Part shown: positions 1-3,627 of the stretch, piece after piece
Position numbering within the stretch: position 1 is the stretch's first letter
Layout: each line of letters opens with the position of its first letter
Origin: an uncultured Lachnospiraceae bacterium
GTDB lineage: Bacteria > Bacillota > Clostridia > Lachnospirales > Lachnospiraceae
Length of the DNA stretch: 64,000 nucleotides
NCBI GenBank assembly: GCA_947567595.1
Contig: CANOMQ010000013.1
Coordinates: forward strand, 1 to 64,000
Direction of reading: 5' to 3'
Program-made: the position numbers and the translations under genes
Notes under the pieces: generated by a model
Seen by the model: only the letters and a program-made list of their open reading frames with translations
Told to the model about the DNA's origin: nothing
The model's database searches: none

Positions 1-61
1 AGATCTTTGACCTGTTCTTTTATTACCTATCATACCCAAAGTTCAGAAAGAACCACATACA

Positions 62-229: not shown

Positions 230-478
230 ATGAATATGAAAAATACCGAATGCAACAAGCCCTCATCCAATATCATGAAAGTAAAAGGACTTGGTAAGGA
301 AAGACATATGAAAGAACTAAAACAGGACGTGGACTACGGCAGCAAAACAATCCGCCTTATCCTGCAGTTCCCCGACGAACCGCAGGATACCATGCAGGCG
401 CAGGAAGAAGTAAAATCAATCCTGACATGCGCATTGCGCGAGCAGATACGAAACAGCGCAGCTATGTACGGCGCATAA
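230..478 (+). CDS. Small accessory protein of the recombinase element (TnpW-like?)
   Basis: An 82-residue protein. GGAGG at 220-224 is five bases before this ATG, so it is preferred over the upstream in-frame ATG at 161. ATG 308 also has a reasonable AAGGA and would give a 56-residue protein. The second half (TIRLILQF, then an acidic helix) resembles the very small conserved proteins that precede large serine recombinases in Tn4451/Tn5397-type elements (TnpW family). That resemblance is a weak impression from composition, length and position. It ends 44 bases before the recombinase and is probably cotranscribed with it. Confidence 0.5.
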   Translation: MNMKNTECNKPSSNIMKVKGLGKERHMKELKQDVDYGSKTIRLILQFPDEPQDTMQAQEEVKSILTCALREQIRNSAAMYGA

Positions 479-522: not shown

Positions 523-2226
523 ATGCAAAAGAAAAAAACAGTCCGAATGCTGCTGCGTGTCAGCTCAAACCAGCAGTTGGAGGCGGACGGAGATTTATCC
601 GTACAAAGACGCATTGTAACAGAATATGTCGCAAAACAAAGCGACTGGAAACTGGATAAAAAAGAATATTTCGAGGGCAGCAAGAGCGGATACAAAACTG
701 CCGTCAGTGACAGGGATGTCCTTCAGGAGGCAATGGAGGATGCCAAGAACGGCGAATATGACATCCTCGTTGCCTATAAGGACGACCGTATCGGCAGGCG
801 CATGTGGGAAATCGGCGCATATGTGATGACGCTCAAAAGTTACGGCGTGGACATCTATACAGTCAAGGACGGCTGCATATCACCCGCGGGCGACGACATC
901 ATGGGGCAGATGATGCTCGCACTGCGGTTCGGGAATGCGCAGAAAAGCAGTTCGGATACCGCCATGCGCGTAAAGGATACGGCGCAGAAGCTGGTGCAGC
1001 AGGGGCGCTTTATGGGTGGAACAGCCCCATACGGGTATGAACTGGTCTTATCGGGAGAACTCAGCAAGCACGGGCGCGCGCTGCATAAACTGGTGGTTGT
1101 GCCGGAACGGGCAGAGGTGGTAAAACATATCTATGACTTATCACTTAATAAAGAGTTCGGTTCCGCGAAAATCGCAAAGACCTTAAATGAGGACAGCTAC
1201 TATCAAACAATGGCGCCAAACGACGTATGGAAAAGCGGAACAATTACAAGCATATTGACCAATCCGGTCTATGCAGGACACGTCGCATATAAACGACGTG
1301 AACGGATAAACGGGATATACCGCAGGTTAGGCGACCATGAATGGATAATATCAAACCAGCCTGACGAAAACATACAGATTATTGACAGCGTGGTATGGGA
1401 TAGGGTACAGGAAAAGCGCAAAAGCAGGGCAGATAAATACATCAAGACCTTGGAACATCAGGAAGCCAATATTATCCGGCGCAATGATGGTATGCTGTCG
1501 CTGATTGATGTCATTCACTGCGGATACTGCGGGGGAAAGATGACAAACGGCACAAAGTACAGCTATTGGAAAATAAAAGGCACGGGAGAAACGCGGGCGA
1601 GCAAAACACCCGTATACCGCTGCCAACGGGCAAGGGAGGGTGCTCTGCATCAGGGCTTCACGCAATACCGCGCGGATATGGTGGAAACGGTTGTCTTTGA
1701 CAGCCTGTTGGAGTATATCGGGCGTTTACAGGAAAAGGAAGACGTTTTTGAAACAATAGAGCGGAACCAAAGCATGGAAAAAAAGGCACAGGAAACGGAG
1801 CTGAAACGCTTAAAGAAAGAACTGGAAAAAACAGTACAAGGAATTACGACAATGGAGCAGCACATTCCCGAAGCCATGACAGGGGATTATGCGTTATCGC
1901 TTGAGGAGCTTGTCGCAGTGATACACAGGCAGCAGGAAAAAAAAGAGGAGCAGGAGGCACAGATACAGGAAAAGAAAGAGCGGTTAGAGCAGATGGCAGT
2001 CACGGCGGGAGAGTGGGAGGAGCTGCGGACACAGATTCCCACATGGCAGCAGGTCTTCAAGGAGGCGGGAAGGGAGACGCAGCGTGTATTGGTGAACAGG
2101 CTGATTGACAGGATTGACGTAACGGATGACCAAATCGTAATCCGCTTCAAAATCAACCTGAACGATTTTTTACCACGAATGAGTGACGGTTCCGGTACCA
2201 CTCCGTATAGACCCTGTTTAACGTAA
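523..2226 (+). CDS. Large serine recombinase (site-specific integrase/excisionase)
   Basis: A 567-residue member of the large serine recombinase family, which integrates and excises mobile elements through a 5'-phosphoserine intermediate. The resolvase domain opens the protein: LLRVSSNQQ places the nucleophile at Ser14, and KDDRIGRR carries conserved arginines. The recombinase domain follows (GTAPYGYEL, TSILTNPVYAGH). A zinc-ribbon region begins with CGYCGGKM near residue 333; its second half shows Cys (YRCQRA) but His where the fourth Cys is usual. A coiled coil spans roughly residues 405-500. A GGGAG site precedes the ATG. The final 12 or so residues (GSGTTPYRPCLT) appear to be read from the interrupted host gene rather than from the element, because the gene runs past the inferred junction near 2190. 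It is the outermost gene of an element that extends left beyond the window. Confidence 0.92.
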   Translation: MQKKKTVRMLLRVSSNQQLEADGDLSVQRRIVTEYVAKQSDWKLDKKEYFEGSKSGYKTAVSDRDVLQEAMEDAKNGEYDILVAYKDDRIGRRMWEIGAYVMTLKSYGVDIYTVKDGCISPAGDDIMGQMMLALRFGNAQKSSSDTAMRVKDTAQKLVQQGRFMGGTAPYGYELVLSGELSKHGRALHKLVVVPERAEVVKHIYDLSLNKEFGSAKIAKTLNEDSYYQTMAPNDVWKSGTITSILTNPVYAGHVAYKRRERINGIYRRLGDHEWIISNQPDENIQIIDSVVWDRVQEKRKSRADKYIKTLEHQEANIIRRNDGMLSLIDVIHCGYCGGKMTNGTKYSYWKIKGTGETRASKTPVYRCQRAREGALHQGFTQYRADMVETVVFDSLLEYIGRLQEKEDVFETIERNQSMEKKAQETELKRLKKELEKTVQGITTMEQHIPEAMTGDYALSLEELVAVIHRQQEKKEEQEAQIQEKKERLEQMAVTAGEWEELRTQIPTWQQVFKEAGRETQRVLVNRLIDRIDVTDDQIVIRFKINLNDFLPRMSDGSGTTPYRPCLT

Positions 2227-2881
2227 ACGACATAATCACCAGTGTATTCGCGTAAATGGTATTCTCCGGCCACGTTGCATAAATCTCAGAAGAGACAACA
2301 TTCTTGATATAATCCGTATACCGCACATAATAATTCGGTGCACTCGAATCCTGCGGAACGCCGTCATGGACGACAATATACTCAGGAATGACCACACGGC
2401 TTAAGACAATTTCGCCGCTCTCGTTTGTCGGTTTGATTTCCTCCTCCGGAATTTTGGGCGGATACTCCCCATATAAGGTATGATCTGGTATGACAATATC
2501 CTCCGCCGCCGGAGCATCTGGCCCCTCCAGTTCCAGCGGTGTCATGGAAACAGGCTGCACCGCCGTGACATCGGGAAGGATTTCCGTGCCCGAAATGACC
2601 ACAGGCTCATAGCCCGGTGCCGTGACGGTGATGTTGTACTCGGAGTAAGGCTGTACCTCGCTTGGCTCCGTGCTGTAATTGATGTTTGGTGCGGGCAGCG
2701 ATACGGTATCGGTCTGCCCGGACTCGTTTGTGGTAAGGGTGGTTACAACATCATCAGGCTCCCTCGTGTAGGAGATTGTGATGGCAGCATTCGGGATGGG
2801 AATGAGTCCCTGAGAAGACGTAACGTTTATGGTGAGATTTCCCGTATAAGCGGGAGCTTCGGTTTTGACGATTTTAGACAT
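2153..2881 (-). pseudogene. SleC-like spore cortex-lytic protein, N-terminal part, interrupted by the mobile element
   Basis: The reading frame encodes 242 residues from ATG 2881, which follows an AGGGG site. An earlier in-frame ATG (2896) lies inside a hairpin. The protein resembles the N-terminal half of clostridial SleC-type spore cortex-lytic proteins: a beta-rich segment (NLTINVTSSQGLIPI, TVTAPGYEPVVISGTEILPD), a linker with VIPEYIVVHDGVPQ, then DYIKNVVSSEIYATWPE and LNRVYTEWYRN. I recall family members as roughly 400 or more residues, so the catalytic remainder and any peptidoglycan-binding domain are missing. Loss coincides with the end of the serine recombinase element. The rest is expected beyond the left end of that element. 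It is either a disrupted gene or one restored by excision. The family assignment is from remembered motifs. Confidence 0.7.
2186..2200. other. Inferred attachment junction of the recombinase element
   Basis: On the minus strand the SleC-like reading runs through LNRVYTEWYRN and then diverges to HSFVVKNRSG and a stop, where family members continue with a GY-F-I-like sequence. The switch falls at about 2186-2194. On the plus strand the recombinase C-terminus crosses the same point. The conserved gene side contains GTTCCGGTACCA (2189-2200). The exact crossover dinucleotide needs the other end of the element, which is not in the window. Confidence 0.6.
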
Positions 2882-2885
2882 AAAA

Positions 2886-2924
2886 ATCCCCTGCATATAC
2901 TTTTTGTTAGTATATGCAGGGGAT
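2886..2924 (-). terminator. 16-bp perfect hairpin: terminator that also covers a ribosome binding site
   Basis: ATCCCCTGCATATACT (2886-2901) pairs perfectly with AGTATATGCAGGGGAT (2909-2924) around a 7-base loop. On the minus strand the stem is followed by TTTT, so it can end transcription of the gene at 2947-3513. The same stem contains the AGGGG ribosome binding site of the SleC-like reading frame, which starts at 2881. Confidence 0.75.
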
Positions 2925-2946: not shown

Positions 2947-3513
2947 TTAAACAGACTCGTCGATAACTGCGCCGGCAGTTGCTTCCGTAACTGTGCCGTT
3001 GTTTGTTGCCGTGGTGGTATCAGTCTTGTCCGTAACCTTGCCGTCTGTGGCAGCTTCCGTTTTGTTCTTATCTTTTTGCAAAAGCTCATTTAATACCTTA
3101 TTTGTACTTGTCGTCTTTTTCTTCTCCGACTTGTCAAGCAGGTTGTCAAGCACCTTGTTTCTGACAGTAGAGATTGTGCTTCTCTGCGGATCGTATGTGT
3201 AGGTACATGCGTGTCTTGACTTGCTTGAGCTTGAGGAAGAAGAGCTGCTCTTGTCAGTAGAAGATGACGTGCCTTCCTTCGGATCAAATGTATAGCTGTT
3301 CGCATGTCTTGACGTGCTGGTGCTTTTCTTTGCGGTATCGTCCGTGTCTACTTCCTCGAAGTAGGACTTCATAAGCTTCTTGTACGTACCTGATTTAATC
3401 ATCTTCGAGTCGCCAATCGTATTGAAAATACTATTTGTACCCGATGACTTTAGATTTAATGAATTATTGAAAAAACTGTTCACTGAAGATGAATTCCATG
3501 AAACTCCTGCCAT
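2947..3513 (-). CDS. Low-complexity Ser/Lys/Thr-rich protein, possibly of the flagellar regulon
   Basis: A 188-residue protein of unknown function. ATG 3513 is chosen over the first in-frame codon (3600) because it has an AGGAGTG site seven bases upstream. The N-terminus (MAGVSWNSSSVNSFFNN; GDSKMIKSGTYKKLMKSYF) reads like a short conserved head. It is followed by two copies of a unit of the type SRHA-YT-DP and a Ser run near residues 115-125, then Lys- and Thr-rich sequence. There is no signal peptide or membrane segment. A sigma-D-like promoter lies upstream (3628-3655), which would place expression with motility genes. That link is inference. Confidence 0.7.
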   Translation of the reverse strand: MAGVSWNSSSVNSFFNNSLNLKSSGTNSIFNTIGDSKMIKSGTYKKLMKSYFEEVDTDDTAKKSTSTSRHANSYTFDPKEGTSSSTDKSSSSSSSSSKSRHACTYTYDPQRSTISTVRNKVLDNLLDKSEKKKTTSTNKVLNELLQKDKNKTEAATDGKVTDKTDTTTATNNGTVTEATAGAVIDESV

Positions 3514-3627
3514 ATGTATCACTCCTTTGACTAAATAATCCTTGCGTCCATGCCGTTGGTATTCTATCGTATCCATGCCCGAACGAAAAGGCACGCCCAA
3601 AAAGCAGCTACGATATTCTTTATTAAC

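Follow-up and report, generated by a model that had tools for sequence, protein, structure and literature searches.

The first 64,000 nucleotides of contig CANOMQ010000013.1 (assembly GCA_947567595.1) from an uncultured Lachnospiraceae bacterium, hereafter the window, begin inside a mobile element that interrupts sleC, the gene for a spore germination enzyme. Judged from the DNA, a mobile element, placed in one fixed sleC site by a large serine recombinase of its own, has its left edge in the window. Insertion is site-specific, the recombinase gene lies at the edge of the element, the second half of sleC is found elsewhere in the genome, the two junctions share a core inside which the halves join into an open frame, and the halves are under selection. 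By this anatomy the element belongs with the gene-intervening elements of sporulation. An original prediction made from the letters of the window had likened it to skin in sigK and SPbeta in spsM, a likeness that the anatomy supports, with a conserved sigma-K-like promoter marking sleC as a late mother-cell gene. We think it likely that the elements found in sleC, and in a second gene that encodes an M23 peptidase, are of the skin/SPbeta/gin kind, and we infer that they are excised in the mother cell, where the gene is re-joined.

Contig C13 of the source genome (G000; 4.16 Mb, 99 contigs; G and L labels below denote genomes and loci) begins with the window. It opens inside a 54-base stretch that recurs at six other contig ends, indicating that the assembly broke at a repeat, and as no part of C13 precedes window position 1, the element has its far end on a different contig. 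As predicted, the recombinase frame (523-2226), with Resolvase, Recombinase and Zn-ribbon domains, stands at the edge of an element that reaches left beyond the window. On the minus strand, an open frame of SleC type (2153-2896) overlaps it across the junction at 2193-2199; the best solved match of this frame is the SleC pre-pro-form (9h68, E = 6.4e-65), which bears out its identification as the N-terminal half (N-half) of a SleC-like protein. With codons counted from the upstream ATG at 2896, the protein resembles its relatives up to about codon 237 (TEWYRN), the final codons of the frame being element-coded, and the likeness is lost where the recombinase frame crosses the junction into antisense sleC, again as proposed.

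Searching with the C-terminal part of an intact relative, we located the other half of the gene (C-half) on the minus strand of contig C28 (C28:43003-43569), beside 12.7 kb of element sequence. Both junctions contain the core GGTACCG, and joining the halves inside it gives an open frame of 425 amino acids (aa) that reads TEWYRNQGYNF, as in intact relatives. The order and orientation of the contigs are consistent with C28 followed by C13; the assembly holds no physical join between them. This in-frame partner is the matching half that the prediction expected to find in the same orientation, and the halves likewise share one orientation in the four genomes of the genus that hold both on one contig (G003, G012, G022 and G030; 3.1 to 20.1 kb apart).

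An intact relative of the window protein has a SpoIID domain (residues 191-266; 24.3 bits, cut-off 23) and a PG_binding_1 domain (351-411), and the break at codon 237 falls within the former. It is most improbable that the halves act as two separate polypeptides, as a split enzyme would: although both frames are open, the break cuts the SpoIID domain, and the codons added by the element, as a 5' extension to the C-half and as a tail to the N-half, vary from one element family to another.

Recurrence of the split and constraint on its halves

Using an intact SleC protein as query, we surveyed 38 genomes of the genus. The gene is whole in 22 and split at the same codon, which we call site 1, in 12 (G000, G003, G005, G006, G012, G014, G022, G023, G024, G027, G030 and G061); three genomes have no sleC orthologue (G004, G007 and G018), and in one the gene is cut by a contig end (G011). 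A break at the same codon in 12 of 38 genomes argues that its position is not due to chance. The 22 whole genes, that of Lachnospiraceae bacterium COE1 (G010) among them, are the uninterrupted relatives with which the prediction had proposed a comparison, and as they are full length they rule out a natural C-terminal end at codon 237. No relative was seen that ends naturally at this residue without an element; all 12 split genomes carry this recombinase family. An assembly error is ruled out as well, since the same break occurs in 12 genomes, including an 833-kb scaffold of Lachnospiraceae bacterium A4 (G022) with both halves. The C-half was located in 11 of the 12 split genomes (all except G014).

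Among the 80 best named loci, taken from 205 relatives, 64 have a whole gene, 15 are broken at site 1 and one (L145) shows a frameshift only. The latter (L145:9998-11217) lies at about codon 281, with no insertion. The G061 locus in this set (L098) ends at the site-1 break, with the element on another contig. Three split loci, whose N-halves are 74% (L123), 64% (L143) and 67% (L146) identical to the COE1 protein, probably belong to other genera, and G222, a further member of the family, is split at site 1 with its halves on two contigs. The joined site-1 frame is open, without a stop, in 12 of 12 cases tested (nine from the genus and three others); G061 and G222, each with both halves, stand outside that set. 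The compared site-1 junctions have GTA (2196-2198 in the window) in common at the same place in the gene, and the sporulation gene spoIVA is present in 18 of the 19 split genomes. Splitting of spore genes by mobile DNA in Lachnospiraceae looks common rather than a rare curiosity.

The recombinase is closely tied to the split. With the window and G030 recombinases as queries (E <= 1e-40), we found the family in 12 of 12 split genomes and in none of the other 26 of the genus. In 11 of the 12 the matching gene sits at the sleC break, and in G023 it shares a contig with the C-half; the sole second copy in the genus, 28-33% identical, is in G000 and is part of an element in an M23 peptidase gene (see below). 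Recombinases at site 1 form two groups that share about 36% identity and lie at the 3'-half end in L123 and L143 and at the 5'-half end in the others placed. The synonymous divergence (dS) of the recombinases is 0.01 between L096 and G022, against 2.35 for their sleC N-halves, and 0.56 between G027 and G005, against 2.06; G012 and G005 have near-identical sleC (N-half dS 0.33), yet recombinases that are only 65% identical. These mismatches indicate that elements move between species and that the site is refilled. Other elements look inherited by the same measure, namely those of G003, G014 and L104 (recombinase dS 0.77-1.17, sleC N-half dS 0.54-0.87) and those of G105 and G084 at a second sleC site (recombinase dS 1.81, sleC dS 1.63 and 1.26, similar cargo), and the latter look old.

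The small protein encoded directly 5' of the window recombinase has a relative in the same place in 14 of 14 elements looked at (by eye, from translations), forming the end of a longer frame in G014 and L104. Nine relatives were aligned, giving a VxLxFPE-type core and a mean column identity of 30%; the window protein (230-478) has no family match above chance. It is a candidate directionality or accessory factor. Site-1 cargo, in turn, varies widely between elements: a RelE-like protein (below cut-off) in G030; a MATE transporter and, below cut-off, a DASS-like permease in G003; a DUF5722 protein in L143; CHASE2-cyclase, HD/GAF and lactamase-fold proteins in L146; an ABC transporter and thymidine kinase in L123; and a D12 methylase and DUF927 in L104 and, by similar frames, in G014. 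No phage structural gene was found among 20 scanned cargo proteins, covering part of the frames of site-1 elements, and five frames of the window element compared with Pfam gave two matches above cut-off (WYL and AAA), neither of them phage-like. In phage and plasmid records, the recombinase found distant matches only, all below 60% identity. One IMG/VR contig of 68 kb (L204:2651-4629) encodes a similar small protein and a recombinase that shares 59% identity with the window one; there is no sleC match in the record.

Both halves of sleC show the marks of strong purifying selection, a pattern unexpected of decaying halves. The C-halves of 13 comparable split genomes have no stops and no indels, and 16 N-halves have no stops. 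The ratio of nonsynonymous to synonymous divergence (dN/dS) of the halves within groups of like elements is 0.024-0.086 (18 comparisons with finite dS). For interdependent pairs with dS 0.2-2, the median is 0.064 for the N-halves (52 pairs) and 0.040 for the C-halves (38) of split genes, and 0.106 (124) and 0.076 (110) for the corresponding parts of intact genes as a control; these ratios are rough, as many dS values are near saturation, and most comparisons include time before the insertion. As the split-pair medians are not above the intact-pair medians, the split genes are not relaxed. Between G105 and G084, dN/dS is 0.021 for the N-half, 0.041 for the C-half and 0.099 for the recombinase.

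These results bear on plain insertional inactivation, in which sleC would be dispensable and its halves decaying. A longer sleC paralogue in five of the 12 split genomes (G003, G005, G006, G012 and G024) would be in keeping with such a loss, but no long paralogue is seen in the remaining seven, which include G000 and some incomplete genomes. Nor does inactivation fit with compared halves free of stops, 13 C-halves free of indels, low dN/dS, an open joined frame in every tested case, or halves that have stayed intact over long divergence, with undiminished constraint in G105 and G084. We regard it as highly unlikely.

Further insertion sites in sleC and in an M23 peptidase gene

The sleC gene is interrupted at a second position in other members of the order. 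In a sample of 246 genomes, 153 gave a sleC match at E 1e-45 among the matches listed, and among these at least six (G077, G131, G105, G084, G048 and G189) have a break near codon 297-300, which we call site 2. Each of the six carries its C-half in matching orientation 3.6-7.9 kb off on the contig that holds the N-half, and the joined frames are open in six of six. Among the other listed matches are further partial ones, some of which begin near codon 160-200. Site-2 recombinases form a separate group of about 480 aa. The cargo of the G189 element (L253:3079-7889) is a germinant receptor operon of the gerC-gerB-gerA-gerB type (GerAC, spore permease, GerA, spore permease). Four IMG/VR contigs (L200-L203) also carry sleC broken at site 2. 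Scanning two of them, we found endolysin, holin, tail tape measure and distal tail matches beside the break in L200 and weaker phage matches in L201; a serine integrase at the far end of L200's contig is 40-43% identical to the site-2 cassette recombinases. Tailed prophages thus use site 2 alongside the cassettes.

The source genome contains a further split gene. On contig C8, a 15,885-base element lies inside an M23 peptidase gene (C8:94245-111161; L284 and L285), with both halves on one contig in one orientation and an open joined frame of 344 aa. Besides a D12 methylase and DUF927, this element encodes a related recombinase and a small protein of the kind described above. Across the genus, the C-half of the M23 gene has a match in 30 of the 38 genomes, with the frame 338-396 aa long in 20 of them and only 148-214 aa long in 10, and the short frames break at two sites, near codons 177 and 199. 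At least 2.5 kb of other sequence adjoins the break in seven of the 10 short-frame genomes (G000, G002, G005, G007, G015, G030 and G060), with phage endolysin genes adjoining it in G015 and G060; in G018, G021 and G061 a contig end lies within 242 bases of the break, so that in these three the break may be an assembly end. On the far side of the insert, the N-half was seen for G000 and, partly, for G002. Viewed by eye, the islands by the M23 break in G002 (L319:2984-7717, minus strand) and G007 (L320:8311-13296) have three consecutive serine recombinase frames, and that of G002 also has frames resembling a sugar ABC transporter and a two-component system.

Sporulation, excision and known gene-intervening elements

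The target genes have mother-cell-like promoters. The motif CATANNNTA occurs within 150 bases 5' of 69 of 79 sleC loci, against 9.5% of mononucleotide shuffles, with AC at -35 spacing in 63, and a sigma-E-like motif precedes the M23 gene in 13 of 21 upstream stretches, against 1% of shuffles; the patterns are Bacillus consensus forms that were fixed after some stretches had been seen, and the counts are interdependent, the sequences being related. In part of PMC3789822, Clostridioides difficile is reported to need sleC for germination and the gene to depend on sigma-K. During sporulation, the recombinase and a directionality factor, for which the 230-478 protein is the candidate, would excise the element in the mother cell; sleC would be re-joined exactly, and SleC would then be loaded into the spore, while the forespore genome would retain the element. 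A gene needed only in a doomed cell would be a low-cost docking site, which would explain its reuse by distant recombinase lineages and phages.

Besides the near-saturated dS values and the pre-insertion time given above, several observations weigh against excision in the mother cell. By the Bacillus consensus patterns, no sigma-E- or sigma-K-like promoter stands above chance before the recombinases (20 upstream stretches), and 13 such motifs were seen inside the elements where 19.7 were expected, which disfavours a recombinase under simple sporulation control. Neither an excised junction nor a circle was seen, and no genome that also holds the element showed a re-joined junction. The C-half of G014 was not found, the N-half of G006 is only a fragment, and L096 and L104 lay outside the C-half search. 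In G061 (C217 end/L195, C340 start/L196), the N-half contig stops where integrated and re-joined sequences would diverge, and the 55 bases at its end recur as the opening 55 of the attL contig. To judge by this overlap, the contig end is an assembly branch at the point where a mixture of integrated and re-joined states predicts one; a strain mixture would give the same branch, and the G061 contig with attR and the C-half is unbroken through its junction.

Some of these observations would suit an element that excises at a low steady rate, or on phage or conjugative cues, with only the excised fraction making germinating spores and selection keeping sleC through it. The lack of a sporulation-type promoter in the elements and the possible mixed population in G061 fit such a mode, and at every time point some C. 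botulinum cells have yin excised, according to part of PMC10747680. We nevertheless consider steady or cue-driven excision rather unlikely: it does not predict the mother-cell-like promoters of both followed-up recurrent target genes, and under it inherited-looking elements such as those of G105 and G084 would tend to vanish. As to the missing promoter, part of PMC5595907 describes constitutive recombinases for SPbeta and C. difficile skin, with control exerted on the recombination directionality factors (RDFs).

Beyond excision of the sleC element in the mother cell, we lean, with some reserve, towards a broader picture of widespread sporulation-gated mobile cassettes. In it, recombinase lineages would be specialised on fixed sites in mother-cell genes for cell-wall hydrolases (two in sleC and two in the M23 gene), moving between Lachnospirales species with diverse cargo while the gene is restored in each terminal mother cell. 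If this is true, split spore genes would be a normal genome state in gut commensals, whose germination would hinge on the recombinase of a mobile element, and germinant receptor operon cargo, of which there is one case, would stay in the forespore.

The SPbeta prophage of B. subtilis, integrated in spsM, uses the recombinase SprA/YokA and the RDF SprB/YotN. It resembles the sleC elements in having a large serine recombinase and a sporulation gene as target, and YokA is the nearest solved relative of the window recombinase (E = 2e-10, over residues 57-304 of 567, under half of the protein); unlike SPbeta, site-1 elements gave no phage structural genes in the 20 cargo proteins scanned. The gin element in gerE of Bacillus cereus ATCC10987 is, in the part of PMC5595907 consulted, likewise a non-phage element with serine recombinases in a mother-cell sporulation gene that is precisely re-joined at a short core, as is predicted here, and it needs a small extra factor, GirX. 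The gene and the bacterial order are different here, and many recombinase lineages and cargo sets share one target, which is hit in 12 of the 38 species genomes from a single genus. Also alike in having the recombinase beside the 5' half are skin in sigK (B. subtilis and C. difficile), vfbin in spoVFB and yin in yabG, for which the restored gene is shown or predicted (PMC10747680, in part); in contrast, the elements here interrupt genes for a germination enzyme and an M23 peptidase, each at two insertion sites. Excision has been demonstrated for gin (PMC5595907, in part) and is predicted for the sleC and M23 elements.

Neither sleC nor the M23 peptidase gene is among the targets given in the consulted part of PMC10747680, and the open-access literature (titles and abstract openings, with subscription papers and preprints outside its scope) gave reports on gerE, spsM, sigK and yabG and none in which sleC or an M23 gene is interrupted. 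New here are the target, its recurrence, a recombinase tied to the site, a second site and a second gene. In the literature covered, regulated spore-gene splitting has so far been described for single strains and genes; here splitting recurs across gut commensal species. The targets are two cell-wall hydrolysis genes with mother-cell-like promoters, and within the genus the recombinase family is confined to genomes with a split target, with one related copy in the M23 gene. Testable questions follow, namely whether mobile elements evolve to dock in genes of dying cells and whether germination of commensals, and with it transmission, hinges on an element's recombinase. Automatic annotation may label such split genes as pseudogenes, leading to spore formers being miscalled.

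Features of the window

Table 1. Features at the start of the window (window coordinates)
Feature	Position	Strand	Remarks
Repeat at contig start (insertion sequence-like end)	1..54		identical over 49-54 bases to 6 other contig ends of G000
Small conserved protein, 82 aa; candidate RDF or accessory protein	230..478	+	directly 5' of recombinase
Large serine recombinase, 567 aa	523..2226	+	at element edge; last codons are antisense sleC
Element-coded tail of truncated SleC frame	2153..2192	-	without match to intact relatives
attL core	2193..2199		GGTACCG on sleC strand; also in other junction, on C28
N-terminal half of sleC	2193..2881	-	start ATG 2881-2879; 89-91% identical to nearest intact relatives, G010 and G031
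Sigma-K-like -10, CATATACTA	2908..2916	-	AC of -35 at 2934-2935

The start of sleC is placed at the second ATG in Table 1; two whole sleC genes (G015 and G060) have an in-frame TAG shortly after the upstream ATG, which fits this placement. An inverted repeat, CCCCTGCATATAC...GTATATGCAGGGG, at 2888-2922 encloses the sleC -10 and the Shine-Dalgarno region. By eye, it is conserved, sometimes imperfectly, in the 15 genus members viewed, and in L091 both arms are altered together; it is possibly an operator. Immediately 5' of sleC, a Ser/Lys-rich frame of 217 aa (2947-3600) has no Pfam match above cut-off and, by eye, is seemingly missing between typA and sleC in some members of the genus.

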